Shown here: positions 8,973 through 50,187 of the stretch, in pieces
Layout of the letters: each line of letters begins with the position of its first letter
How positions within the stretch are numbered: position 1 is the stretch's first letter
Assembly (NCBI RefSeq): GCF_002305895.1
Contig: NZ_CP022203.1
Location: 346,001-410,000, forward strand
DNA: 64,000 bases
Direction of reading: 5' to 3'
Origin: Corallococcus macrosporus DSM 14697
GTDB lineage: Bacteria; Myxococcota; Myxococcia; Myxococcales; Myxococcaceae
Notes under the pieces: model-generated
The model's input: only the letters and a program-made list of their open reading frames with translations
Databases searched by the model: none
Told to the model about the DNA's origin: nothing
Position numbers and translations under genes: made by a program

Positions 8973-10355
<1,383 letters not shown>

Positions 10356-10376
10356 GGGTGTTCTTCCTTCTGCGGG

Positions 10377-13300
10377 TTAGAGGGACCAGCCCAGCGACGC
10401 GCTGAAGGCGACGCCGGGCTTGTACGACTGCACGACCACCGAGTCCTGGCGGAGCGTGACGGAGGAGTTGAGCAGGTTGGCCGCGGTGAGCTTGAGCTGC
10501 GCGGAGCCGAGCTGCTGGGCCACGGAGATGTCCAGGCGGTGGAAGGGGCGCTCGTAGACGTCGGGGAGCCGCTGGACGCCGACCTCGCTGATGCGCGGGC
10601 CGTAGACGTTGTAGAGGACGGTGAACTCGGTGCCGCTTCCGGGCCGCTGGTAGCCGACGTTGAGGTTGATGACGTAGGGCGACTGGCCCTGGAGCGGCCG
10701 GCGCCGGTTCGTCTGCGCGCCGACGACGTTGTCGCCCAGGTCCACCTCGGACTGGATGAGCGTGAGGTTGGCGCCCACGCGCACGTCACGCAGGGACTCG
10801 GTGAGGCGCCCCAGGGAGGCGCGGGCCTCCAGCTCCAGGCCGTAGGTGTCCGCGCCGGCGGCGTTCCGGTAGGTGAGGTCCTGCGCCTCCGGGTTGTTGA
10901 TGACGCGCTCGATGGGGTTGACGAAGCGCTTGTAGAAGGCGCTGGCGGCCAGCACCTCGTTCTCACCCGCGAACCACTCGACGCGCGCGTCCACGTTGTG
11001 GATGCGCGTCTGCTCCAGGTCCGGGTTGCCGGACACGTTCCGGCGGCGCACGAAGTCGAAGTAGATGAAGGGCGCCAGCTCGCGGAAGGTGGGCCGCGCC
11101 AGCGTGTAGCTGTAGCCGGCGCGCAGGTTCACCGTGGGGGTGAGCGCGTAGATGGCGTTGAGGGCCGGCAGCAGGTTCGCGTAGTCGGCGCGGTTCTCCG
11201 TGTCAGCGGCGCCGGTGAACGGGTCCTTGAGCGTCAGCACCTGGTGGGAGGACTCCAGGCGCAGGCCGCCCACCAGGCGCAGGGCCTCCAGGGGCTGGGT
11301 GTCCGCGGAGACGTAACCGGAGAAGACGCCCAGGTACGCGTCATACGCGTCATCGGCGCGGGTGGAGTCGCGCACGGTGATACCGGTGCCCAGGTTCTCC
11401 GGCGCGAAGAGCTGCTCGGGCGGGAGCGTGCGGTCCACGGGCGTGTTGCCCAGGATGTAGCGGAAGCGGCGCGCGTTGAAGTCGCGGAAGGACACCTGGG
11501 CCAGGCCACCGGCCTTCAGCTTCACGGCGGACAGGGGCAGGGTGAGGTTGACGGTGCCGCCCGTGGACGTCTCCCCCAGCTCGGCGAAGAAGCGCTCGCC
11601 GCTGTTGGGCTGGTTGGGGAAGGTGGGGAGCGCGCCGGGGACGTTGAAGTTGCTGCTGTAGAGCGTGTCGCGGGTGTCCGGCTCGTCACGGTCGACGCGG
11701 GACACGTTGGCCTGCCAGTCCAGCTCCGCGTCGCCCAGCAGCCCCAGGCGGTGGAAGCCGCGGAGCTGGTTGAAGAAGAGCTGGCGGCTGACGAACTGGA
11801 GCCGCGTGCTCTCGTAGCGCTCGGTCCGGACGAGGTTGTTGGCCGTCGCCGTGTGCGTGCGCGTGTCGGTGCCGCGGGTGTAGAGGCCGAACCAGGTCAG
11901 CTCGTTGTCGCGGTCCAACTGGAAGCCCACGCTGCCCAGGCCGCTGAGGCTGGCCGTCTCGAAGCCCTGCGTGTTGTTGGCCGACTCGAAGGCGTAGAGG
12001 GTGTCCGTCTCGTCGCGGGAGGCGCGGGCGAAGGTGCCCTCCTGGACGCCGTCGCGGTGGCCGTAGTTGGCGCTGGCCAGGTAGCCCAGGCGGCTGTTGC
12101 CGAAGCGCAGGGTGTCACCCACCGACACGCCCAGGCCCATGTTGGGCAGCGCCGTGGTGCGGCGGGCCTGCCAGATGTTGGGGAAGCTGCGGTACTGCTG
12201 CGCGAGCACCTCGCTGGACTCGCCGGAGGCGCCGAGCTGGCTGTCGCGCGGAATCGCATTGGGGAGCTGGCGGCTGCTGCTGGGGAAGCCCAGCGCCTCG
12301 CCGAAGCCGCCCTGGCGCTGGCTGTTGCGCTCGCGGAACGTCGTCACGGAGTCGCCGCCCAGGCTGATGCGCGGCTTGAACTCGAACTCGCTGGGGTAGG
12401 AGTTGGTCTCGATGAGCAGCGTGCCGCCGCCGAAGGTGCCGGGCAGGTCCGGCGTGTAGCTCTTCACCACGTTGAGGTTGGCGAGCAGGTTGGTGGGGAA
12501 GATGTCCAGCGGGACGCTGGGCTCGTCCGGCTCCGGGCTGGGCAGGAGCGCGCCGTTGAGCAGCGTGGTGCTGTAGCGGCCACCCAGGCCGCGCAGCAGC
12601 ACGTAGCGGCCGTCCACCACCGTGGCGCTCACCACGCGCTTCACCGCGTCGCCGGCGCTGGAGTCCGGCGTGCGCGCGATTTCCTGCGCGCTGATGGCGT
12701 CCGACACGGCGGCGGCCTTCCTGCGCTCCTGGAGCAGCGCGCCCTCGGCCCGGCGGTCCGCGCGGGCCTCGACGACGACCTCCTGCACCGCGCCTTCGTC
12801 CGCGCCCAGCGCGACGTCCAGCCTGGTGGCCTTGCCCTTGTTCACGATGACGCCGGTGATGCGGCGGCCCTGGTACACGTCATAGAAGACGCGCAGGTCG
12901 TACTTCCCGGGCGGCAGCGCCACCCGGTAGAAGCCGTCCAGGTCCGTGAGCACCTGCTTCTGCGCGCCGGTGACGACCTTCACGGTGGCCTCGATGAGGC
13001 CCTCGCCGTTGGCCTCGTCCGTCACGCGGCCGTGGATGCCGGTGAAGCCCGGGGGCGGCACGGCGGACTCGGCCAGCATCGCCTCGTCGCCCATGTCTTC
13101 CATGGATGCGTCGGCGGGCGCCGCGGGCTGCTGCGCGGTCGGGTCGGCCTCGGTGCCGGGCTGCGCGGCCGTCGGCGCGGGAGTGGCACCCGGCTGCTGC
13201 GCGGTGGGCGCCGTTTCGGTGCCAGGCTGCTGCGCGGTGGGCGCCGTTTCGGTGCCAGGCTGCTGCGCGGTGGGCGCGGTCTCCGTGCCCGGCTGCTGCG

Positions 13301-35127: not shown

Positions 35128-36060
35128 TCAGCTCGCCTTGAGGAAGCGCTCGTAACGGGCTTCCAGGTAGTCGCGGCGCGGCTGCTGTTCACGGGACTCC
35201 GGCAGGACGCTCAGCGCCTTTCCGGCGAAGGACTTGAGTCCGTACTCCAACGTGGGGCCGTCGCGCTCGGCGAGCAGCCGGGGCGCGATTTCGATGATGC
35301 CATCGGGGCGGATGCCCAGCAGGTCCGTGTCGAAGGCGCCGTGGTGGAGCTTGCAGAGCGCGAGCCCGTTGGGGACCTCCGGCCGGCCGCGCTCGTCCCG
35401 GTCCGGAAGGATGTGCGCCGCGTCCAGCAGCTCCAGACGGGGGAACCGGCACACCGCGCACCGCTGCGAATAGGCGCGCAGCACGTGCTGCCGGAAGGCG
35501 GCTTGATGCAGCCGCTTCTTCATCTGGACCGTGGCGTAGCGGCGCTCCAGGTTCAGGAGCTTCGGGTCCGCCGCGTGGAGCCCGGGCGTCAGCACCTCCG
35601 CGTCCGGGGCGGCGGAGACGACGGTGAAGCTCAGCTCGGCCGGGTTCACCTCGGCGATGTAGACGGGCCAGATGGGCCGGTAGAAGCCGGACTCGATGCC
35701 GTAGAAGTAGATGAGCGGGACGTCCCACGCCATGCCCCTCACGAGCCGCCGGTTGTCGCGTGATTCGACGTCCGTTCCCTGGAACCGGTACTGGAAGCCC
35801 TCGTTCGAGCGCAGGTCGTCGTAGCGCGCCTCGCGGCCCTCGCGGGGCACGGTCGTCTTGATGGACAGCGCCGTCTCGCGCATGTGCCGGGGCCAGAAGA
35901 TGCCGCGCGCGCGGTTGGCGAAGTGCAGCGTCTCGCCCTGGTACGTGAAGCCTTGATTGATGACGTTCCAGGGCAGCACCTCGCCATGCTGGCGCACCAG
36001 CTTCTGCAGCGCGTTCATGGCGGCGACCCGGATGGGCCAGTCGAGGTCCTGGTTCGTCAA
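35128..36060 (-). CDS. HNH endonuclease-domain protein
   Basis: This 310-residue protein has a C-terminal HNH nuclease domain: zinc-type CAVCRFPRLELLDAAHILPD, then NGLALCKLHHGAFDTDLLGI, with the catalytic His in DAAH and the Asn and His in NGLALC..HH. The N-terminal 180 residues carry an uncharacterised sensor-like region beginning DWPIRVAAMNALQKLV, as in restriction-type proteins that read modified DNA. No methyltransferase adjoins. The start is TTG at 36060, since homologues I recall begin close to this WPIR segment; an ATG at 36018 is the alternative. Probably a modification-dependent or solitary nuclease. Confidence 0.85.
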   Translation of the reverse strand: MTNQDLDWPIRVAAMNALQKLVRQHGEVLPWNVINQGFTYQGETLHFANRARGIFWPRHMRETALSIKTTVPREGREARYDDLRSNEGFQYRFQGTDVESRDNRRLVRGMAWDVPLIYFYGIESGFYRPIWPVYIAEVNPAELSFTVVSAAPDAEVLTPGLHAADPKLLNLERRYATVQMKKRLHQAAFRQHVLRAYSQRCAVCRFPRLELLDAAHILPDRDERGRPEVPNGLALCKLHHGAFDTDLLGIRPDGIIEIAPRLLAERDGPTLEYGLKSFAGKALSVLPESREQQPRRDYLEARYERFLKAS

Positions 36061-36778: not shown

Positions 36779-37636
36779 TCAGCGCCGCTCCAGCAGCGCG
36801 CCACCCGGCCCGAAGCCCAGGGTGAGGCACAGCACGCGCGAGTGACGCGCCAGCCGCGCATCACTCCGCGCGGCCTCCGTGGCCAGCTCGGCATCGTTGA
36901 GCACCAGCGCCGTCCCGTGCCCCTCGGTCCCCAGCGCCGCTCGGAGGATGTCCGCCACCAGCGACGCCTGTCCCTCCCAGCCGTAGGTGCAGCCTCCTGG
37001 CACCAGCATCGCGTCCAGCGGGCACGGCAGCGCGAGGCACAGGGCATCGGGTGGCCGCGCCGAGAAGACCCGCAGGGCACTGGCGATGAACGCCACCGCC
37101 GCCTTCACGTGGCGCCCGTCCGTGGGGCGCGCCATTCCAATGAAGTACCGGGGGAGCAGGGCCGTGTCGCGCTCGAAGATGCGCGGCGCCGCCGTGTGGC
37201 TCACACACTTGATGCCGGTCTGCCCCACGTCGAGCGCCACCGGATGGGCGGGCGCGAAGGGCGCCAACAGGCGCAGGCCCGCCTGGGCCGGGGCGAAGAG
37301 CGGATGCTCCGCCGCGTAGACGGGGCAGGGGAGCGCGGGGGCCACGCGCGCGAGCATCTCGCCAAACCCCTCCAGGCAGACGAGCCCACCACTGAGCCAC
37401 ACGGCATCCACGACGTGCCGCTTCGCCAGGGTCGACAACGCCACCGTGAGGGCCGGGCGCAGCCGTCCAGCGAGCGCTCGCTCGGGCACGCCCGCGCTCC
37501 GGTCCGCTTCCACGCGAGGCGCCCCGAGCACCTCCCACAGCTCGCGCCCCTGCACGGGCAGGTTCCACACCTCCAGCGGTGATACACCCGGCAGCACCAG
37601 TCGCCGCACGTCCCAATCACGCATGCAATCACTCAC
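36779..37636 (-). CDS. ROK-like ASKHA-fold protein with permuted lobes
   Basis: This 285-residue protein has sugar-kinase/actin-like motifs in an unusual order. Residues 60-125 look like the ROK C-lobe (DAVWLSGGLVCLEGFGEML, then PVYAAEHPLFAPAQAGLRLL). Residues 130-285 look like the N-lobe: phosphate-1 VALDVGQTGIKCVS, then GGCTYGWEGQASLV, LVLNDAELATEAA and phosphate-2 CLTLGFGPGGALL. The zinc motif of true ROK proteins (HGHMx, CxCG) is missing. Its GTG overlaps the stop of the glycosyltransferase (GTGA), so it is coupled and may phosphorylate or sense a sugar used there. Confidence 0.78.
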   Translation of the reverse strand: MSDCMRDWDVRRLVLPGVSPLEVWNLPVQGRELWEVLGAPRVEADRSAGVPERALAGRLRPALTVALSTLAKRHVVDAVWLSGGLVCLEGFGEMLARVAPALPCPVYAAEHPLFAPAQAGLRLLAPFAPAHPVALDVGQTGIKCVSHTAAPRIFERDTALLPRYFIGMARPTDGRHVKAAVAFIASALRVFSARPPDALCLALPCPLDAMLVPGGCTYGWEGQASLVADILRAALGTEGHGTALVLNDAELATEAARSDARLARHSRVLCLTLGFGPGGALLERR

Positions 37637-38826
37637 GCCACGAGCCGGGTGATGCGTTCAGCGGCTCCCTTCGCGCCGTCCCGTGCCTGGTAGGAGGCGG
37701 CGATGCCGGCCGCCCGCTGGCGCAGCGCCGTGCCCGGCTCCAGCAACTGGCGGAGCGCCGCGCGGCAGTCCTCGACGGAGAGCGTGCGCGAATCCCTCAC
37801 CAGCCCGGCGCCCGACTTCTCCAGGAAGTGCGCCTGGATGGGCTGGTCATTGCAGACAGGAAGAAGCAGCATCGGAACGCCTTCGGTCAGCGCCTCCATC
37901 ACGGAGTTGGCGCCGCCGTGTGACACGAGCACGGAAACCCGCGGGAGCAGTTGTCGCTGAGGTGTGTATGGCACGGCGACGACGTCACCCGGAAGCGTGT
38001 AGACAAATTCTGTATCAGCCAGCTCGCCCGCGCTGAGCACGACGGTGACGCCCAGGGGGGCGGCGGCTTCGGCGAGCGTTCGGAACACCTCCGGCTGCCA
38101 CGAAATCTGGCTGCCGAAGGACACGTACACCACGGGCCTGGAGCCCAGCCGCTCCCAGGGGAAGTCCACCTCGTCGCCGCGCGCCTCGGGAGGCGTGGAC
38201 GGGCCCACCAGGTGCGTGGCGGGCGGGAGCCCGGCGTCGGGGCCGAGGAAGGCCTCCGTGGCGAAGATGACGTTGAGGTCCGGTGACAGGCACTCGCAGT
38301 TGCGGAAGCGGGCATCGAAGCCGTGGCGGGCGAACAGCGCCTGCCGTTCCCCGGCCAGCGCGCGCACGTTGCGGCGCAGCCCGTAGTCGACCGGCGGCTC
38401 CAGCAGCGACAGCGCGGAGGACACCCCGGCCCAGGGGATGCGCAAGTCATGGGCGGCCAGCACGGCGGCGTACTGCATCCCGTCCAGCGCCATGACCTCC
38501 GGGCGGAAGCGCTCGACGGCCTCGCGCACCGGCGTCAGCAGCGAGGGCACGGCGTCAATCAACAGCCCCCGAATCCACTTCCCCAGCGCGGCCTCGTCGA
38601 GCACCAGCCGCGCGAGCGCCTCGCCTCCCGTCTCGATGGTGGGCACGGGCGGCCCGGCGTGGGGCAGGGGCAGCACCTCCACGCCCAGCCGCTCGAGCTG
38701 CGGCGCCGGCTCGGGGAGGCACAGCCAGCCCACGTGGTGGCCCATGCGGCGCAGCCACAGCGCGACACCGGCCATGGGGTTGAGGTGGCCCTTCTCGGGG
38801 GAGGTCGCAATCAGGATTCGGGACAT
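37633..38826 (-). CDS. GT1-family (macrolide-type) glycosyltransferase
   Basis: This 397-residue enzyme transfers a nucleotide sugar to a small-molecule acceptor. It has the GT-B fold with an N-domain starting RILIATSPEKGHLNPMAGVA (acceptor-side His-like GHLNP). The C-domain has the donor signature PVVYVSFGSQ, then LLPRVSVLVSHGGANSVMEAL and GVPMLLLPVCNDQPIQAHFLEK; HGGxNSxxE and DQ are the nucleotide-sugar residues. It matches the MGT/UGT subfamily of natural-product glycosyltransferases. It overlaps the preceding asparagine-synthetase-like gene by 16 bases and the next gene by 4, so all three form one operon. Confidence 0.92.
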   Translation of the reverse strand: MSRILIATSPEKGHLNPMAGVALWLRRMGHHVGWLCLPEPAPQLERLGVEVLPLPHAGPPVPTIETGGEALARLVLDEAALGKWIRGLLIDAVPSLLTPVREAVERFRPEVMALDGMQYAAVLAAHDLRIPWAGVSSALSLLEPPVDYGLRRNVRALAGERQALFARHGFDARFRNCECLSPDLNVIFATEAFLGPDAGLPPATHLVGPSTPPEARGDEVDFPWERLGSRPVVYVSFGSQISWQPEVFRTLAEAAAPLGVTVVLSAGELADTEFVYTLPGDVVAVPYTPQRQLLPRVSVLVSHGGANSVMEALTEGVPMLLLPVCNDQPIQAHFLEKSGAGLVRDSRTLSVEDCRAALRQLLEPGTALRQRAAGIAASYQARDGAKGAAERITRLVA

Positions 38827-40109
38827 GGGGGGCGAGCGCTGGCGTGGGCGTGGAGCATGGCGAGCGAGCACAGCCGCATCAACAGCCGGTCCACGCCCCC
38901 CGCCTCGGAAGCGTCAGGCGCCAGACGCGCGGAGCGCTCCAGCAGCGCCCGGGCCGCGCCCACGTCGACGACCTCCAGCGGCCCCAGCCGGTCAGGCGTG
39001 AGCCATTCCCGGTACAGCTCCAACCAGCGCGCGCGGACGGGACTGGAGAGCGCCGTCTGCGCGTAACGCGGCGTCTTCCGAGCGAGCCGGACCGCGTCGG
39101 GCACGAGCGAGCGCACCGCGTGCCGGAAGAGCCACTTGCCCGCGTCGTGACGGGCCAGCACGTCCCGGGGAAGCGCCAGCGCCGCGTCCGCGAAGCCTGC
39201 GTCCAGGTAGGGCGTGTGCACCTTCACCCCCTGTGTGCTCGCGCTGCGGAGCTCGGGAGGCAGGACCAGCTCCCAGAGGACCCAGGCCGCGTAACGGACC
39301 TCTTCTGGATGATCCTCGTCACCGGGCGCCAGCCCCGCTTCCCACGGGAGCAGCCGCGCCCGCTGATCCACCCCCAAGTTGTCCACAGGCCCTGGGCGCA
39401 GCACCTCGCGAGCGAGGCGCCGGTCCTCCCTCACCCGGGCCGTCGCGCCCACGAGCGCCTCCGGATTGCCCATGAGCACCTCGTCCGCGCCGGCGCCGCT
39501 CAGCAGGGTGACAGCGCCCTGCCGCCTGGCCTCCGCGTAGAAGGCGAAGCTCGCCACGGCGCGGGCGTTGAGGATGGCCGTCTCCTGGCTCAGCACAGCG
39601 GGCTCGAACAGCTCGGGGAGCACCGCGTCCGGGATGGCCACGTCCACCAGCTCGACGCCGGCCTCACGCGCTACCGTCCGGGCATTCCGCCGCTCCGTGG
39701 CGTCCGCGAAGTGGACGTCCATGGTCCAGGCACGGACGCGTCCAGGGGCCTGCCGCGCGGCCAGGGCGCACAACGTGGCGCTGTCCACGCCGCCGCTCAG
39801 GCTCACGTCCACCGCGCCCGCCGCCAGGTGCCGGCCCACGCGGTCCGCCAGCGCGGCCACGAGCCGCTCCGCCAGCGTGTCTTCATCCGCGAGCGCCTCC
39901 GTGCCGCGCCGCACGCGAGGCAACGCCCCGGGCACCCTGCGCACGCCCTGGAACACGCTCTCCTCGGGCCGCAGCGAATGGCGCAGGAAGGCGGCGACGG
40001 CCTCCGGGGCCAGCCCCGTGGGGTTGAGCCGCCACACGGATGACGCCACACGCGCCGATGACTGGTAGCGGGGCAGGGCGGCGAGCGGGCCGCCAGAGGC
40101 GTGAGACAC
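38811..40109 (-). CDS. Asparagine-synthetase-like amidotransferase lacking a complete glutaminase domain
   Basis: This protein of about 432 residues has the ATP-pyrophosphatase domain of asparagine synthetase: the PP-loop DVSLSGGVDSATLCALAA, then TLLSGAGADEVLMG, and a late DKxxFR-like AGKWLFRHAV. The first roughly 70 residues (HSLRPEESVFQGVRRVPGA) match only the end of a glutaminase/beta-lactam synthetase-like N-domain, with no start Cys. It is therefore probably an amide- or lactam-forming enzyme using a non-glutamine nucleophile, as in lasso cyclases and beta-lactam synthetases. The GTG at 40109 is the start because the frame runs into the divergent radical SAM gene; another GTG is nearby at about 40052. 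Confidence 0.85.
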   Translation of the reverse strand: MSHASGGPLAALPRYQSSARVASSVWRLNPTGLAPEAVAAFLRHSLRPEESVFQGVRRVPGALPRVRRGTEALADEDTLAERLVAALADRVGRHLAAGAVDVSLSGGVDSATLCALAARQAPGRVRAWTMDVHFADATERRNARTVAREAGVELVDVAIPDAVLPELFEPAVLSQETAILNARAVASFAFYAEARRQGAVTLLSGAGADEVLMGNPEALVGATARVREDRRLAREVLRPGPVDNLGVDQRARLLPWEAGLAPGDEDHPEEVRYAAWVLWELVLPPELRSASTQGVKVHTPYLDAGFADAALALPRDVLARHDAGKWLFRHAVRSLVPDAVRLARKTPRYAQTALSSPVRARWLELYREWLTPDRLGPLEVVDVGAARALLERSARLAPDASEAGGVDRLLMRLCSLAMLHAHASARPPCPES

Positions 40110-40163
40110 GCGGCTACTGTGACAAGCGCCAGGGGCCCCGGGCAACCTCGGTATAGTCCCGCC

Positions 40164-40952
40164 GTGCGCTACGAGCTCCAAGACGGACGCATCCTCACCT
40201 GGTCCCTGGAGACGCACGTCGCCACGCACTGCAACCTGCGCTGCGAGCAGTGCTGCCCGCTGTCGCCGCACCTGCCCGCCTGGTCCGTGGACCCCGCGGC
40301 CCTGGGCAAGGACTTGCGCCAGCTCGCCCAGGCCCTGAGGCCCAACGTCTTCAAGCTCACGGGCGGCGAGCCCTTCCTCCACCCCGACCTGCCAGCGGTG
40401 CTGGACGCCGTGCGCGCCTCGGGCATCTCCCGGCAGGTGTCCGTCACCACCAACGGCTTCCTCGCCCAGAGCGCGCCTGACGCCGTCTACGAGCGCCTGG
40501 ACCGGATGACCCTGTCCGTCTACACCTCCGCGCCGCTGCCGGAGCGCTCCATCGCCCGCATCACCGAGCGCTGCGAGCAGCACGGCGTCCACCTCACGGT
40601 GAAGCGCATCGACGCCTTCCAGCAGCTCACGCCGGAGGCGCCCCACGAAACCGAAGAGGCCGTGCGAGGCGTCCACGCCCGGTGCTGGCTGAAGGTCCGC
40701 TGCCACCTGGTCCACGCGGGCCGCTTCTACGCCTGCACGCGCCCGCCGCACGTGGCGACGGTGCTGGGGCGCACCTACCCGGAGCTGCCCGCGCTGGGCG
40801 AAATCGACGGCGTGCCGCTCGACACGCCGGACCTGCTGGGCCACCTGCTCAACCACCTCGAACGGGAGACGCCGCTGGCCACCTGCCGCTACTGCCTGGG
40901 CGGCGACGGCGCCTGGCGGCCGCACGCCCAGCTCCCTCGCGCCCGAAGCTGA
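40164..40952 (+). CDS. Radical SAM protein
   Basis: This 262-residue enzyme has the cluster motif CNLRCEQCC (CxxxCxxC) near residue 26, then the SAM-binding GGE (KLTGGEPFLHPD) and VSVTTNGFL. The C-terminus ends with a short cysteine pair (CRYCLGG) after RCWLKVRCHLVHAGRFYACT, a SPASM/twitch-like remnant that could hold an auxiliary cluster. It is divergent from the asparagine-synthetase-like gene with 54 bases between the starts, so both may share a regulatory region. The start is GTG at 40164. The substrate is not evident; no precursor peptide gene is in the gap. Confidence 0.9.
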   Translation: MRYELQDGRILTWSLETHVATHCNLRCEQCCPLSPHLPAWSVDPAALGKDLRQLAQALRPNVFKLTGGEPFLHPDLPAVLDAVRASGISRQVSVTTNGFLAQSAPDAVYERLDRMTLSVYTSAPLPERSIARITERCEQHGVHLTVKRIDAFQQLTPEAPHETEEAVRGVHARCWLKVRCHLVHAGRFYACTRPPHVATVLGRTYPELPALGEIDGVPLDTPDLLGHLLNHLERETPLATCRYCLGGDGAWRPHAQLPRARS

Positions 40953-44284: not shown

Positions 44285-45595
44285 TCAGCGCGGCCCGCGG
44301 AACGGCACGGGCTTCGTGCCGGTGGCCAGCGCTGACACCTCCACGTGACACACCTCCACGCATGGCCGCGTCCACCCCAGGTTCCGCAAGGCGCCGCCCA
44401 GCCGCTCGCGCAGCGGCGCCACGTCCGCGGGGCTCGCGCCCGCCAGCTCCAACTGGAAGCGTGACGTCTCGACCTGGGTCAGCCGGAAGCGCCGCAGCGC
44501 ATGGTGTTTGAATACCCAGGCCAGCGCCCAGGCGTCCACCTCCCGGCCCGCGGGCGTGACGAAGTGGCAGGCCCCACGGCCGCCGAAGTGCTCCAGCGTC
44601 CACCCGTGGAACCCGCAGGCGCACGCGTCGCGCCGCACGCGGCCCGCGTCGCCCGGGCGGTAGCGCAGCAGGGGGAGCACGCTGGGGCGCAGCCGCGTCA
44701 CCACCACCTCGTCCAGGCCCGGCTCCAGCCAGACATCGGGCGCCAGGACGTGGAAGCGGCCCGGCGCCTCGGGCCGTAGACACTCCCAGGCCAGCGGCCC
44801 CGTCTCCGTGGTTGCGTAGTAGTTGAGGACGGGCGCGGGCACCACGCTCGCGAGCTCCGCGCGCAGGCCCGCGGGCAGGTGCTGCGCGGAGGTGAGCACC
44901 AGCCGGGGCGTGGGCACGTCGCGCTGGGCCGCCAGCCAGCGCAGGCCCTCCGGGTCGGAGAAGAGCACCGCGGGCCGCACGCGGCGCAGGCGCTGGAGCG
45001 CGTCCTCCCGCAGCACGGAGAGGCGGTGCAGCGCGCCGTCCCGGAGGATGGGCAGGCGCACGGAGTACTCCAGCCCGCCCGGCAGCGCGTCCAGCAGCAC
45101 CACGCGGGGACGCGCGGGCAGCACCGCCCCCGCGCGCGCCACGAGGAACCGGAGCACGGCCCACATGTGCAGGCAGTCGCGCCTGTCCCTCACCACGTTC
45201 ACCGGCGCCCCGGTGGACCCGGAGCTCTTCACCACCACGCACGCGTCGGCGTCCGCCGGCGGCGTGGGCACCGCGTCCCAGTGCTCGGCCAGGGCCTCGC
45301 GGTCCAGGAAGGGCAGGTGACGCAAATCCTCCAGCGTCTGGAGGTCCCCCGGGTGGAGGCCCGCCGCGTGGAGCCTCGCGGCGTGGTACGGCGAGTCCCG
45401 CAGGGCGGCGCGCAGGAAGGACAGCCGGGCGTCCAGGTCCGCGCGGGCCGCGTCCTCGTCGGCAAGGGCGGCGAAGCGGGACAGGCCATCGGCGATGGAC
45501 TCCGCCCAGGGGATGTGGGGGCGCTGCGAAGCGGTGTCCCGGCGGATGTTCGCGCGAGGCGCGACGCGCAGGTCCGGGGACAGGCCCGTCGTCAC
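44285..45595 (-). CDS. PaaK/coenzyme F390 synthetase-like adenylate-forming enzyme
   Basis: This 436-residue protein activates a carboxylate with ATP. The P-loop-like VVVKSSGSTGAPVNVVRDRR is the AMP-binding core motif, followed by YYATTETGPLAWEC and LPLLRYRPGDAGRVRRD, the Asp-Arg adenylate-binding motif. The C-terminal Lys-containing tail (TGTKPVPFR) is the position of the catalytic lysine of the ANL family, as in phenylacetate-CoA ligase. The start is GTG at 45595, which overlaps the upstream stop (GTGA), so it is the last gene of the MoxR operon. An acyl or peptidyl substrate inside the operon is possible but unknown. Confidence 0.88.
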   Translation of the reverse strand: MTTGLSPDLRVAPRANIRRDTASQRPHIPWAESIADGLSRFAALADEDAARADLDARLSFLRAALRDSPYHAARLHAAGLHPGDLQTLEDLRHLPFLDREALAEHWDAVPTPPADADACVVVKSSGSTGAPVNVVRDRRDCLHMWAVLRFLVARAGAVLPARPRVVLLDALPGGLEYSVRLPILRDGALHRLSVLREDALQRLRRVRPAVLFSDPEGLRWLAAQRDVPTPRLVLTSAQHLPAGLRAELASVVPAPVLNYYATTETGPLAWECLRPEAPGRFHVLAPDVWLEPGLDEVVVTRLRPSVLPLLRYRPGDAGRVRRDACACGFHGWTLEHFGGRGACHFVTPAGREVDAWALAWVFKHHALRRFRLTQVETSRFQLELAGASPADVAPLRERLGGALRNLGWTRPCVEVCHVEVSALATGTKPVPFRGPR

Positions 45596-46155
45596 TCCCG
45601 CCACCCGCGCGCCTCCGAGGCGCGCTGCTCCGCTTCGCGGAGGGCCTGCTGCCGCTTCTCCGCCTCCTGCTTCCGGGCCTCCTCCGCGCGGCGCATCTCC
45701 GCCTCCGCCTTGCGGTAGTCGAGCTGCTCGAGCCGGGCGATGGAGCCCTTCGGCGACTCGCCCTTGCACTGCCCGCCCACCACGCGCACCCACTTGCGGA
45801 GGAACTCCTCGCGGCGGAACGTGTTGGAGCGAATCATCTCCGCCGTCAGCGGGGCCACGTCGTGGAAGAAGCGCTGGAGCAGCGTCGTCGCGTCGTCGCT
45901 CCTGCCCAGCGTCCGCACCGTCTCCTGCCGCAGCGCGGAGGACACCAGCACGTGCGCCAGCATCACCACCTGCTCCCGCCACAGCGGGGAGCGGGCCCGG
46001 TCCTCCAGGGCGCCCCAGTCCGCCCGGGACGGTGGCCGGAGCTTCGCCAGGCGGAAGGTGTCGCAGATGATGGCCAGGGCCAGGTCATGCGAATACGGCG
46101 ACACGATGGGGGCCGCTTCGAGCTGCGTCTGAAGCTCGCGGATGTCGAAAGCCAT
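45592..46155 (-). CDS. Coiled-coil protein of the MoxR operon
   Basis: This 187-residue protein has an alpha-helical N-part (FDIRELQTQLEAAPIVSPYS, then DLALAIICDTF) and an Ala/Glu/Arg-rich coiled coil from residue 145 (EQLDYRKAEAEMRRAEEARK). It has no membrane or signal segment. The ATG at 46155 has GGAG upstream; a TTG at 46164 overlapping the preceding stop is possible. It lies between the metallopeptidase-VWA gene and the ligase gene. I do not recognise the family. A scaffold or adaptor for the MoxR/VWA complex is an inference. Confidence 0.75.
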   Translation of the reverse strand: MAFDIRELQTQLEAAPIVSPYSHDLALAIICDTFRLAKLRPPSRADWGALEDRARSPLWREQVVMLAHVLVSSALRQETVRTLGRSDDATTLLQRFFHDVAPLTAEMIRSNTFRREEFLRKWVRVVGGQCKGESPKGSIARLEQLDYRKAEAEMRRAEEARKQEAEKRQQALREAEQRASEARGWRE

Positions 46156-46160
46156 GGGAC

Positions 46161-47831
46161 TCAATTCTCCAGCAGTGCCTGGGCGAGGTCGGCGGCCGCC
46201 TTCGCGAAGTCAGAGGGCCAGCGCACCAGCACCAGCCGGAAACGGCGCTCGCGCAGCAGCGGCGCCAGCACCTTCCGGGCGCGGAGTTCGTCGGGGAGCG
46301 CGAGCACGGCCACCACCAGGCGCGAGCGGCGGACGGACTCCAGCACCGGCGTCAGGTCCTTCTCCGCGCTGAGGTTCCACAGGAAGTCGCTGTCGGAGAT
46401 GATGATGCGCAGCGCATCGGGGCGCTCGCGAGACAGCGCCTCCATGACGTCGAAGGGGAACTGCGTGCCCCCGCCGATGTAGCTCAGCAGGAAGTCGCGC
46501 GCCGTCTCCTCGTCGTACATCCACGGCGACACCAGCGGCTTGCGGTAGGCGGAGTACACGATGCCGCGCACCGTGGCCTTCTTGCGCAGGGCGGAGGCGG
46601 ACAGCACCTGGGCCGCCAGCGTCATCGCGTTGAGGCTGTGCTCCGGGTCGGGCATGGAGCCGCTGGTGTCCAGGTAGATTTCCACGGACGGCACGCCTGG
46701 CTCGGAAGGAGGCGGCAGGTCCGCCTCCAGCTCGCGGCGCAGGGGGGACACCGCGGCCAGGTGGCCCTGGGACAGCACCGTCAACGTCCAGTCGATGCTG
46801 TTCGGGTCGTCTCCGTACTCCCACGCCTGGGGCGTGGTGCGCAGGTAGGGCTCCGGCTGGGAGGGCGTGGAGGGGAGCTTCAGGATGTGCGGGTCCACCA
46901 GCCGCTTGTAGTGCTTCGCCACCAGGGCTCGCCGCAGCTTCCCATCTCCCTTGCCGGGCAGGTGCTCGGTGACGCGGTGGATGGTGTCCAGCGCGTCCTT
47001 CTCCTTCGAGCGGGTGCTCAACGGCTCCAGCCAGCCCTGCTCCTGCGCCTCCTCCATCGCGTCGTCCCAGCGGCTGCTGCCGTGGATGGCGGCGTCCAGG
47101 TCGTCCACGTCCGGCGCGGAGACGTCACCGCCCAGCGGCAGGCTGAACTCCAGGTCCGCCGGCTTCTCGATGTAACGGATGAAGGTGGCGCAGAAGTAGA
47201 GGAACTGGAGCTTGCCGTCGGGCAGCGCGTAGAAGGTCTGCGCGAACATGCGCGCCTCGGCGCGCACGCCGGGGAAGCGCCTCTCCATCGGCTCGAGCTG
47301 CGCGGGCGGCACCAGGCTCCCGGGCGTCAGGCCCCATAGCTCCTCGTAGATGGCCAGGTAGAAGAAGAACAGCGCCGACATCTCGCCGCCCTGCACGCGC
47401 TGGAAGCCCCGGTACACCGCGCACAGCGCCTCCGCGTGGGTGCGGCCCACCACCTCGTTCACCTGCAAGTCGTAGAAGAGGTTGGTGAGGGACTGCCTCA
47501 GGCCGGGGACCAGCCGCTGCTCCTGCACGCGCAGCTCCGCGTCCCAGCCCAGCGTGTGCGGGAAGCGCGCGTGGTGGCCGATTTCATGCGCCAGCACCGC
47601 GGTGAGGCTGCCCGTGGCCTCCATGGCCTCCAGGAGCTTGAAGTTGACGAAGACCTGCCGCTTCACCAGGTCGATGTACGCCAGCGGCTCCTGGGCGTGG
47701 CTGGCGTCGGGGGCGAAGGCCACGTGGGGCTCGGGCGGGCTGAGCTGCACGCGCACGTCCCACAGCGCCAGCGCGTCGCGCCAGCTCTTGGCCACGTCTT
47801 CCGGGGGGATGCGCGGCGGCCGCTGGCTCAT
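46161..47831 (-). CDS. HExxH metallopeptidase fused to a VWA domain (DUF2201-like)
   Basis: This 556-residue protein combines two domains. The N-part has LTAVLAHEIGHHARFP (HExxH, about residue 94) with an adjacent helix, as in predicted zinc metallopeptidases. The C-part from about residue 370 is a VWA domain with MIDAS DTSGSMPDPE and the later RIIISDSDFLW. The linker is a long helical section. This architecture resembles the DUF2201/MoxR-linked VWA proteins; the protease domain is the distinctive part. It overlaps both neighbours by ATGA-type contacts. With the AAA ATPase it probably forms a chaperone or remodelling complex, and the protease may cleave the client. Confidence 0.85.
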   Translation of the reverse strand: MSQRPPRIPPEDVAKSWRDALALWDVRVQLSPPEPHVAFAPDASHAQEPLAYIDLVKRQVFVNFKLLEAMEATGSLTAVLAHEIGHHARFPHTLGWDAELRVQEQRLVPGLRQSLTNLFYDLQVNEVVGRTHAEALCAVYRGFQRVQGGEMSALFFFYLAIYEELWGLTPGSLVPPAQLEPMERRFPGVRAEARMFAQTFYALPDGKLQFLYFCATFIRYIEKPADLEFSLPLGGDVSAPDVDDLDAAIHGSSRWDDAMEEAQEQGWLEPLSTRSKEKDALDTIHRVTEHLPGKGDGKLRRALVAKHYKRLVDPHILKLPSTPSQPEPYLRTTPQAWEYGDDPNSIDWTLTVLSQGHLAAVSPLRRELEADLPPPSEPGVPSVEIYLDTSGSMPDPEHSLNAMTLAAQVLSASALRKKATVRGIVYSAYRKPLVSPWMYDEETARDFLLSYIGGGTQFPFDVMEALSRERPDALRIIISDSDFLWNLSAEKDLTPVLESVRRSRLVVAVLALPDELRARKVLAPLLRERRFRLVLVRWPSDFAKAAADLAQALLEN

Positions 47832-48655
47832 GCCGGGACGAACACCAGCACGTGCTGGGAGGTGTGCAGCGTGGCCGCCACCCGCCAGTCATTGGACAGG
47901 GTGGCGAACCACGCGTCCGCGCGAGGGTCCTCCCGCAGCGCCTCGTCCAGTTGCGGGCTCTCCGCGCGCGTCTGCTCCGGCACCTCGCGGCAGCCCATGG
48001 CGCCCAGCGTCACCGGCGTCCGCGCCAGCCAGATGCCCTGCGTGGCCGCGTCGCGGCCCGCCACGGCCTGGCGGTGCCGGTCATGCACGCACACCACGGT
48101 GGGGGACAGGAAGTGCATCGCGCCGGGCAGGAAGCGGCTGTCCTCCTGGGACAGGTCCACCCAGTGCGCCTGGGCGCGCGAGGCCAGCGGCGCGTCGGGC
48201 GGCTCCAGGGCCACGGCGGACGTCTCGCGCAGCCGCGCCTCGATGTCCTGGAGCGACGTCAACCCCTGGCCCACGCGCCAGAAGATGCGCTGCACCCACG
48301 GCGGCGCGGCCTCCAGGTTCTCCCCCAGGTTCCACAGCTTGGCGAACACCTGCGAGCGCTCCTGGGATGGCACCGCGGCCAGCAGGCGGGGAACCAGGTC
48401 CGACCACGCCAGGGTGAAGAAGTTCTGCCGGCCGGCGCTCGCGGGGTACAGGTAGCCCAGGCCAATGGCCTCCGCGCCGAGCTTGAGGTAGGCGCGCAGC
48501 AGCTCCTCTCCCTCCGCGGCCGGCGTGCCCGCTTCGAGCAGGGCCTGCCCCAGCCGCTGCGCGGCGCCGCCGGTGAGCTCCCGCCACAGGGCGGAGTCCC
48601 AGCGCACGAAGCGGGCGCGGGCGTTGGCCTCCAGCTCGTCGGTGAAGGTGCTCAT
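47828..48655 (-). CDS. Unknown protein of the MoxR operon
   Basis: This 275-residue protein is cytoplasmic and mainly alpha-helical in the first half (FTDELEANARARFVRWDSAL, then QRLGQALLEAGTPAAEGEEL). A beta-rich second half has two VWA-like or hydrolase-like segments (ARTPVTLGAMGCREV and WRVAATLHTSQHVLVFVPA). No catalytic motif is recognised. The ATG at 48655 overlaps the stop of the MoxR gene (ATGA), and its stop overlaps the start of the metallopeptidase gene, so it must be a component of the same complex. The frame extends further upstream as an overlap shadow of the MoxR gene. Confidence 0.8.
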   Translation of the reverse strand: MSTFTDELEANARARFVRWDSALWRELTGGAAQRLGQALLEAGTPAAEGEELLRAYLKLGAEAIGLGYLYPASAGRQNFFTLAWSDLVPRLLAAVPSQERSQVFAKLWNLGENLEAAPPWVQRIFWRVGQGLTSLQDIEARLRETSAVALEPPDAPLASRAQAHWVDLSQEDSRFLPGAMHFLSPTVVCVHDRHRQAVAGRDAATQGIWLARTPVTLGAMGCREVPEQTRAESPQLDEALREDPRADAWFATLSNDWRVAATLHTSQHVLVFVPA

Positions 48656-50187
48656 GGGCGGCCGCCCGGGTTCTCCTTCAGCCACGTCGCGTAGTTCCGG
48701 TAGCGGCTGTACAGGGACTTGAGGTGGATGACGTCCTCGTAGACGGGGCCGGACAGCTCGTGCCGCGTGAGCAGCTCGTTCAGCAGCACCGTCACCTTGG
48801 ACATGCGCTTCTCGGTGGTGCGCAGGTCCACGCCGGACAGGCCCTTGTCCAGCTCGTGGCGCAGCGCCGTCACCTTGCGGCGGAGGGGCTGGTGCGTGTC
48901 GTAGTGGCCCATGGCCATGTCGAACATGTTCCGCAGCCAGGCCACGCGGTCTTGGAGGAGCATGCGGTGGCCCTTCACCTCGAAGAAGGCGCTGCGCGGG
49001 TTGGGCACCAGCTTCTCGTGCAGCACCCACGGCGCAATCTGCCGGAAGTCCTCCAGCTCCACGGCGCGGTGACCGCGGAAGAAGGCCATGGCCTTCGCGA
49101 AGTGGAGGATGGTCTGGTACGCGCGCACGCTGACGCCGTTCTCCGTCTGCGTGCAGAGGTGGACCTTCTTGTCCAGCGGGCACTGCTCGTTGCACACCGC
49201 GGCCACCGTCTGCCCGGCCAGCTTGAGCGTGTCCTTGTGCTTGAACTCGAAGCGCGGCGAGGCCATCCGGCAGAAGTCCAACTGCCCCAGGAAGAAGGCG
49301 ATGCGCTCCAGCACGTCCTTGGGCACCTCCACCTCCAGGATGGCGGCGTAGGCGCGCTCCAGCTCGCCGGGCGTGAAGACAATCTCCCTGGGCAGCAGCT
49401 CCTCGGGGGACTTGTCCGCCTCCAGGCGCTGGAGGAGCTGGTCCATGAAGCCCGAGTTGAACGGCACCGCGCGCACCACCACGTCGATGCGGTCCTTCAG
49501 CGCCTCGATGACCTGGAACGTGCCGCCGCCCTGGTCGTCGTTGGCGGTGAGGAACCAGGAGGAGCGGCCCGCGTAGACGTACTGGTCCATCATCTCCGCG
49601 TAGCCCTCCGCCATGAGGGACAGGAGCGCGGACTGCGTCTTGGTGGGGATGCGGTTGTACTCGTCGATGATTTTCACGCGCTGGCCAATCCACTTGCGCC
49701 AGCTCACCTTCACCGCGGACAGGTCCTCCGCCTTGAGCATGTCGGAGGGCAGCGGCGCGCCCAGCAAATCGGAGATGGAGAGCTGCGGATGGCCGCGCTG
49801 GATGCCGCGGTGCACCTCGTCGCGGCCCATGCCGGACAGCAGCGCCATGAGGATGGCGGACGTCGTCTTCCCGCGCCCCGGCCCGCCCACCAGCAGCGCG
49901 CGCCGGCAGGTGAAGAGGGTGAGCAGGGGGATGAGGACGAAAGAGCTGTAGCTGGTGTCCTCGGGCAGGTGGAGCTCGTCACCCGCCGGCGTCTTGAGGG
50001 ACGCGGACGCGCCGAACTCCAGGTCGTAGTAGGGACAGATGACGGCGTTGTTGGTAATCCACCAGTACGCCTGCCGCATCTTGTCGTGGAGGCTGCCGCC
50101 GTCGCGCTCGGAGAGGTGGACGTTGAGCTGCTTGTCCGCCGTCGCGCGCCCGGTGAGCAGGCGCGTCACCCAGTCCTGGTTGGCCAT
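48652..50187 (-). CDS. MoxR-family AAA+ ATPase
   Basis: This 511-residue ATPase has Walker A LLVGGPGRGKTTSAILMAL (about residue 100-115), Walker B VKIIDEYNR, sensor-1 FLTANDDQGGG and an arginine-rich region with DRIDVVVRAVPF. The N-terminal 90 residues and the long C-terminus (from residue 300) with helical HATALRHELDKGL-like repeats are larger than in standard MoxR (about 330 residues), which fits a substrate-binding extension. MoxR ATPases act with VWA proteins to load metals or remodel complexes, and a VWA partner is encoded three genes downstream. It is the first gene of a five-gene operon. Confidence 0.92.
   Translation of the reverse strand: MANQDWVTRLLTGRATADKQLNVHLSERDGGSLHDKMRQAYWWITNNAVICPYYDLEFGASASLKTPAGDELHLPEDTSYSSFVLIPLLTLFTCRRALLVGGPGRGKTTSAILMALLSGMGRDEVHRGIQRGHPQLSISDLLGAPLPSDMLKAEDLSAVKVSWRKWIGQRVKIIDEYNRIPTKTQSALLSLMAEGYAEMMDQYVYAGRSSWFLTANDDQGGGTFQVIEALKDRIDVVVRAVPFNSGFMDQLLQRLEADKSPEELLPREIVFTPGELERAYAAILEVEVPKDVLERIAFFLGQLDFCRMASPRFEFKHKDTLKLAGQTVAAVCNEQCPLDKKVHLCTQTENGVSVRAYQTILHFAKAMAFFRGHRAVELEDFRQIAPWVLHEKLVPNPRSAFFEVKGHRMLLQDRVAWLRNMFDMAMGHYDTHQPLRRKVTALRHELDKGLSGVDLRTTEKRMSKVTVLLNELLTRHELSGPVYEDVIHLKSLYSRYRNYATWLKENPGGRP

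Follow-up and report, generated by a model that had tools for sequence, protein, structure and literature searches.

The radical SAM enzymes SpeY and BtrN act on sugar or cyclitol alcohols, SpeY in the biosynthesis of spectinomycin. Three PDB entries (7WZV, 7WZX and 7X0B) carry the title "The structure of a Twitch Radical SAM Dehydrogenase SpeY". BtrN is a 2-deoxy-scyllo-inosamine dehydrogenase with a twitch domain, and its structure was solved with 2-DOIA. Aminoglycoside pathways combine glycosyl transfer, radical SAM chemistry and dehydrogenation in a logic similar to the one proposed below (PMC5461906), and in a subset of the MoxR-vWA-centric conflict systems a radical SAM protein is the effector (PMC7159879). 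The locus described here lies in a 64,000-nucleotide stretch of DNA (the window) from a complete genome of 8.97 Mb. It is like the aminoglycoside clusters in logic and is not one of them: no cyclitol-forming, cyclitol synthase, sugar-nucleotide or aminotransferase gene was recognized among the scanned genes near it (about 32.6-51.8 kb), so the acceptor and the donor must come from elsewhere.

Four intact genes, as judged by translation, Pfam and NCBIfam, form the locus (Table 1): a radical SAM gene on the forward strand, and genes for an asparagine-synthetase (AS)-like ATP-PPase, a GT1 glycosyltransferase and a ROK-like protein on the reverse strand. The original prediction of a radical SAM gene facing an operon of three overlapping genes was borne out, and both overlaps, of 16 bases between the ATP-PPase and GT1 genes (38811-38826) and of 4 bases between the GT1 and ROK-like genes (37633-37636), are kept in close relatives. 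The divergent gap, first given as 54 bases, is about 114 bases when measured from the GTG at 40164 and 51 bases when measured from the alternative start at 40101. The GTG at 40164 is the most likely radical SAM start, because homologous proteins begin there and because a TATAGT box 6-8 bases upstream of it is kept in most Myxococcus-group genomes (17 upstream regions aligned). This box suggests that the start may be leaderless or nearly so. A promoter and terminator consensus scan found nothing. Three genomes of the same genus (G120, G128 and G131) have one in-frame TGA within the stretch that aligns to the 283-aa form of the radical SAM protein; the gene is intact in them if the TGA precedes GTG 40164, as the shorter start predicts.

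Table 1. Features of the locus and of the linked five-gene block, with positions in the window
Feature	Position	Strand	Remark	Basis
Circularly permuted ROK/ASKHA-fold protein (predicted)	36779..37636	-		AlphaFold2, alignment, profile and fold searches
GT1 glycosyltransferase, MGT/macrolide type	37633..38826	-		PF00201, PF06722
Asparagine-synthetase-type ATP-PPase without catalytic glutaminase domain	38811..40049	-		PF00733, alignment
TATAGT box	40150..40163 (approximate)	+	just before GTG 40164	alignment of 17 upstream regions
Twitch radical SAM enzyme, SpeY/BtrN-type (predicted)	40164..40952	+	alternative start 40101	PF04055, profile match, AlphaFold2 model, alignment
AMP-binding (PaaK/CapK-like) ligase	44285..45595	-		PF00501, co-occurrence, distance, neighbourhoods
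187-aa protein, no family assigned	45592..46155	-	member of linked block	
Metallopeptidase (HEVGHH)/VWA-like protein	46161..47831	-		PF01435 (weak); VWA-like by eye only
275-aa protein, no family assigned	47828..48655	-	member of linked block	
MoxR-type AAA ATPase	48652..50187	-		PF17863/PF07726

The ROK-like and radical SAM genes are present in an identical set of genomes, 49 of the 195 Myxococcota species genomes searched. These carriers are all the genomes of the window's genus (g1) and of genera g5, g6 (probably Corallococcus) and g9 of the same family, plus three outliers (G027, G155 and G186), while the other listed genera of the family have neither gene. The locus is thus common to all the Myxococcus-group and Corallococcus-group genomes searched, plus a few distant bacteria. 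Had the three outliers been picked independently out of the 149 genomes that lie outside the clade, the two genes would share one and the same triple with a chance probability of 1.9e-6; the 46 in-clade genomes share these genes by descent and are not independent. All four genes are under purifying selection (pairwise dN/dS 0.15-0.26), and since their reading frames are also kept over 49 genomes, the conservation of the locus goes beyond chance. The worry attached to the original prediction, that orthologues of these genes might not co-occur, clearly fails in the face of this shared distribution and of the relatives found elsewhere. That no genome of the carrying genera is without the locus suggests a core or developmental function more than the variable kind of cluster that is typical of natural products.

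Myxobacteria are a major source of natural products, and the locus is in every searched genome of the carrying genera, yet no product was found in the literature. A partial search (open-licence literature, with most subscription journals outside its scope) found no paper on SpeY, on the locus or its product, or on a permuted ASKHA/ROK protein, and no description of a SpeY-type radical SAM enzyme paired with a glutaminase-less, amide-forming ATP-PPase.

By profile and model the radical SAM protein belongs with the SpeY/BtrN-type twitch sugar or cyclitol dehydrogenases, this activity being a prediction. Its family profile matches PDB 7wzv over the full length (E 6e-59, obtained without the SpeY-like sequence L066), and its AlphaFold model (pLDDT 91, made without templates from an alignment that included L066 as one row) matches SpeY structures 7wzv, 7wzx and 7x0b with Z 33, TM 0.92 and 33% identity, the twitch fold match also covering the whole protein. 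The next-best structure is that of BtrN (PDB 4M7T; Z 15.2, 14% identity). The cysteines of the CX3CX2C motif (C23, C27 and C30) are invariant in 19 sequences, four twitch cysteines (C174, C191, C241 and C244 in the numbering of the 262-aa form) are likewise invariant, and SpeY shares both sets. It differs from SpeY in having an extra cysteine, C180, which is near-invariant and is missing from the SpeY-like L066 protein, so the enzyme could instead be an epimerase. The SpeY/BtrN placement moves it away from peptide chemistry. Genomic context also differs: the window gene stands with ATP-PPase, GT1 and permuted ROK-like genes, whereas the L066 gene stands with sugar-nucleotide and aminotransferase genes. 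L066 is a contig of Streptomyces sp. NRRL B-1347. The genes around its SpeY-like gene (9962-10870), identified by eye, are of dTDP-sugar, aminotransferase and Gfo/Idh types, and the cluster appears to be one of the spectinomycin type. A PADLOC match of the window protein to pVip (42 bits) was set aside, SpeY being far closer.

The ATP-PPase (PF00733, E 1.3e-37) resembles asparagine synthetase B and the beta-lactam-synthetase-type ATP-PPases in its PP-loop domain, keeping the SGGVDS motif and the downstream lysines K307 and K327. It was correctly described at the outset as lacking a complete glutaminase; the alignment shows more precisely that the catalytic part of this class II domain, with its Cys nucleophile, is gone and that only the end of the domain is left. 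In the glutaminase-less sequences another residue (K in the window) stands in place of the Glu of the AsnB motif GLEARVPF, which the two full AsnB sequences keep. Because the glutaminase domain and this Glu are both lost, the enzyme is unlikely to make asparagine; its product is likely to be an amide or lactam formed with an amine nucleophile or free ammonia. The GT1 protein (PF00201, E 3e-19; PF06722, E 2.7e-14) has a GT-B C-terminal domain of the UDPGT/EryCIII type and scores 138.7 bits against TIGR01426, below the cut-off of 260; its solved relatives are mostly natural-product UDP-glycosyltransferases.

The label "ROK-like" in the original prediction fits the motif content of the fourth protein and not the order of its motifs, which appears to be circularly permuted, and Pfam recognizes nothing in it: it has no match in Pfam, NCBIfam or PADLOC, and copies rotated in sequence have none in Pfam either, PF00480 included. 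Its AlphaFold model (32 sequences; pLDDT 93, pTM 0.91) has two RNase H-like domains with phosphate-1 and phosphate-2 hairpins by secondary structure, which is the ASKHA fold, and fold searches match it to ROK proteins, PPX, pantothenate kinase, MreB and Lmo0178. Like the ROK sugar kinases, such as the polyphosphate/ATP-glucomannokinase 1WOQ, it has phosphate-1, phosphate-2, ND and adenosine-type motifs on this fold; unlike them it has the permuted order, DxGQT instead of DxGGT, and no zinc motif (CxCGxxGCxE is absent from all 32 sequences). From the N terminus, two short strands come first; a helix-strand-helix-strand-helix stretch that contains the adenosine-type SGG motif is next, followed by a full phosphate-1 domain (DxGQTxxK at 136, NDAEL at 247) and, at the C terminus, by the phosphate-2 hairpin GFGPGG (GxGxG at 274). 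The SGG motif thus lies N-terminal to phosphate-1, and the family order of phosphate-1, connect-1 (ND), phosphate-2 and adenosine is not followed. The DxGQTxxK, NDAEL and GxGxG motifs are invariant in the 32 sequences, remote ones included.

Do other comparisons see the same order? In a profile search residues 134-284 match the N-terminal half of the ROK kinase 1woq (E 9e-5), and stretches within residues 19-125 weakly match chains of MreB, of Kae1-type proteins and of kinases in their C-terminal halves. In the fold search residues 129-284 pair with the N-terminal half of a GlcNAc kinase (to residue 141) at 20% identity. When the profile is rotated the matches turn collinear; the E value of one alignment to 3lm2, for example, goes from 1.5 to 0.077. 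When native, rotated and duplicated profiles were aligned by hhalign to 21 myxobacterial ROK proteins, no match reached significance (best E about 0.04, probability about 1%); the aligned blocks are collinear only after rotation, and we do not base the permutation on this comparison. We consider it highly probable from the model and the alignments that this protein has a circularly permuted ASKHA/ROK fold, the break falling within domain II behind the second strand of that domain. We know of no other circularly permuted ASKHA/ROK protein, nor of such a partner, or an ATP-PPase, in the BtrN pathway. If confirmed, the protein would provide a circular permutant of the actin/hexokinase fold from nature, in which the coupling of ATP to sugar binding by the two halves of the fold could be tested directly.

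Outside the clade these genes occur in other arrangements, most of which have a radical SAM gene, an AS or AsnB gene and a GT1 gene in common. The G027 locus has genes for the radical SAM enzyme, a glutaminase-less AS, a full AsnB, GT1, GT2, the ROK-like protein and PIG-L; that of G155 has full AsnB, GT1, ROK-like and PIG-L genes, with the radical SAM gene on another contig beside the five-gene block described below; and G186 has radical SAM, GT2 and ROK-like genes on a short contig. Among the matches listed, Paraliomyxa has AS, AsnB, GT1, protein kinase, ROK-like and PIG-L genes with a radical SAM gene elsewhere, and two Acidobacteriota have radical SAM, AS and GT1 genes, with PIG-L in one of the two. 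The ROK-like protein was not found in the one Acidobacteriota genome searched, nor were relatives of PIG-L and GT2 in the window's own genome, in a search run without a positive control. Both Acidobacteriota loci have a class III (lysine-6-aminotransferase-like) gene beside them (L065 4913-6265 and L176 5534-6889, 80% identical), which we do not count as a part, as it may be mere synteny.

The locus is also not "minimal", as it was originally called, since five more genes (44285-50187) travel along with it and relatives add PIG-L, GT2 and AsnB. These five genes stay together as a block in both Myxococcota and Acidobacteriota, and in the Acidobacteriota contig L065 all of them follow the radical SAM gene in the same order. 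In the 42 genomes with both genes on one contig, the AMP-binding ligase gene of the block is 21-7027 bases (median 3342) from the radical SAM gene, and it adjoins that gene directly in G102 (L051), G155 (L045) and L065. The ligase is linked to the locus in Myxococcaceae and Acidobacteriota, and in G155 to the radical SAM gene only. G013 has the ligase gene without the cluster, as several more genomes have the VWA-like gene, so the block can also stand apart from the locus. PADLOC gave no match for the block. As in the MoxR-vWA-centric conflict systems (PMC7159879), a MoxR ATPase adjoins a VWA-like protein (VWA-like by eye only in the window); the window block differs in being accompanied by the AMP-binding ligase and the sugar enzymes.

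What might these proteins make together? A SpeY/BtrN-like radical SAM enzyme, a small-molecule GT1, an amide-forming ATP-PPase, PIG-L in relatives and a sugar-kinase fold lead us to favour, with reasonable though not strong confidence, a locus that encodes tailoring steps for an amidated (amino)sugar or pseudo-sugar conjugate and not for a ribosomal peptide. Counting against this reading are the presence of the locus throughout whole genera, the failure to recognize cyclitol-forming or sugar-nucleotide genes among those scanned nearby, the negative search of the window's own genome for PIG-L and GT2 relatives (run without a positive control), and C180, which could make the radical SAM enzyme an epimerase. 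Beside what is observed (gene content, intactness, co-inheritance, enzyme family placement, conserved motifs and a predicted permuted fold), we infer the order of steps, the substrates, the kinase activity and the role of the linked block as follows: GT1 would transfer a sugar from an activated donor to the acceptor; the radical SAM enzyme would take H from a sugar or cyclitol carbinol and oxidize (or epimerize) it; the ATP-PPase would adenylate a carboxylate and join it to an amine or free ammonia; and the permuted ROK-type protein would bind ATP and sugar and either phosphorylate the sugar or act as a sugar sensor. In the distant relatives PIG-L would act as an N-deacetylase, and further steps would fall to GT2 and full AsnB. 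The probable task of the AMP-binding ligase is to provide an activated acyl group; the MoxR/VWA-like pair may serve to remodel one of these enzymes or to activate it. A more far-reaching idea, which we put forward only tentatively, is that the locus makes a new class of sugar-derived metabolite or cofactor in all members of the Myxococcus/Corallococcus clade, with the first permuted ROK/ASKHA sugar kinase and with maturation aided by a dedicated MoxR/VWA-like ATPase system and by the AMP-dependent ligase, both of which accompany it across phyla.

The original prediction of a biosynthetic locus stands as far as a conserved multi-gene set with amide-type, radical and glycosyl-transfer enzymes is concerned, and its peptide, lasso and beta-lactam framing is not supported: the radical SAM enzyme goes with SpeY and BtrN, PIG-L and GT2 genes accompany the set in relatives, and there is no sign of a precursor peptide. 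The ATP-PPase could nonetheless act with the radical SAM enzyme on a lasso- or graspetide-like precursor peptide encoded elsewhere, which GT1 would glycosylate, and the ATP-PPase does have weak similarity to macrolactam/lasso cyclases (NF033561, 57.8 bits against a cut-off of 300; NF033535, 19.9 against 525). We regard such a ribosomal product as quite improbable, since the radical SAM enzyme is not of the peptide SPASM type and relatives have the PIG-L and GT2 genes just mentioned. The earlier failure to find a precursor also holds, as the four genes are too tightly packed to hold one and the genes on either side change from genus to genus; no leader-processing partner was seen in the cluster or its close flanks, and a look for conserved short ORFs near the cluster noticed none.

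An amidated, oxidized sugar could alternatively be destined for the envelope or matrix (LPS, exopolysaccharide, spore coat or glycolipid) and not for a diffusible small molecule. Core conservation across whole genera, the GT2 and PIG-L of relatives, and the general occurrence of AsnB-like amidation and PIG-L deacetylation in surface polysaccharide pathways agree with this, but MGT-type GT1 enzymes, solved relatives included, usually act on small acceptors, and no polymerase, flippase or undecaprenyl-phosphate transferase was recognized among the scanned neighbour genes; we think an envelope product unlikely. Somewhat less doubtful, though still not what we expect, is that the ROK-like protein is no enzyme and serves the pathway as a sugar-binding regulator or chaperone. 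The ROK family includes repressors, the fold searches matched Lmo0178, and both the Pfam match and the ROK zinc motif are missing; however, the phosphate-1 and phosphate-2 motifs and the catalytic-type Asp (D248 of NDAEL) are invariant in 32 of 32 sequences, and the predicted model leaves no room for a DNA-binding domain.

Neighbouring HNH, PPOX, AKR and histidine kinase genes were considered as parts of the locus and rejected, being missing or displaced in other genera. The HNH protein (35128-36060), which has a PADLOC match to PDLC04132 (71 bits), is beside the locus in some species and apparently broken or absent in others. In Corallococcus-type genomes (L046-L050) 2-10 kb of unrelated genes, among them DEAD/RecQ-like and NERD-UvrD helicase genes, are inserted exactly between the divergent radical SAM and AS genes, and the AS protein there carries a long insertion.
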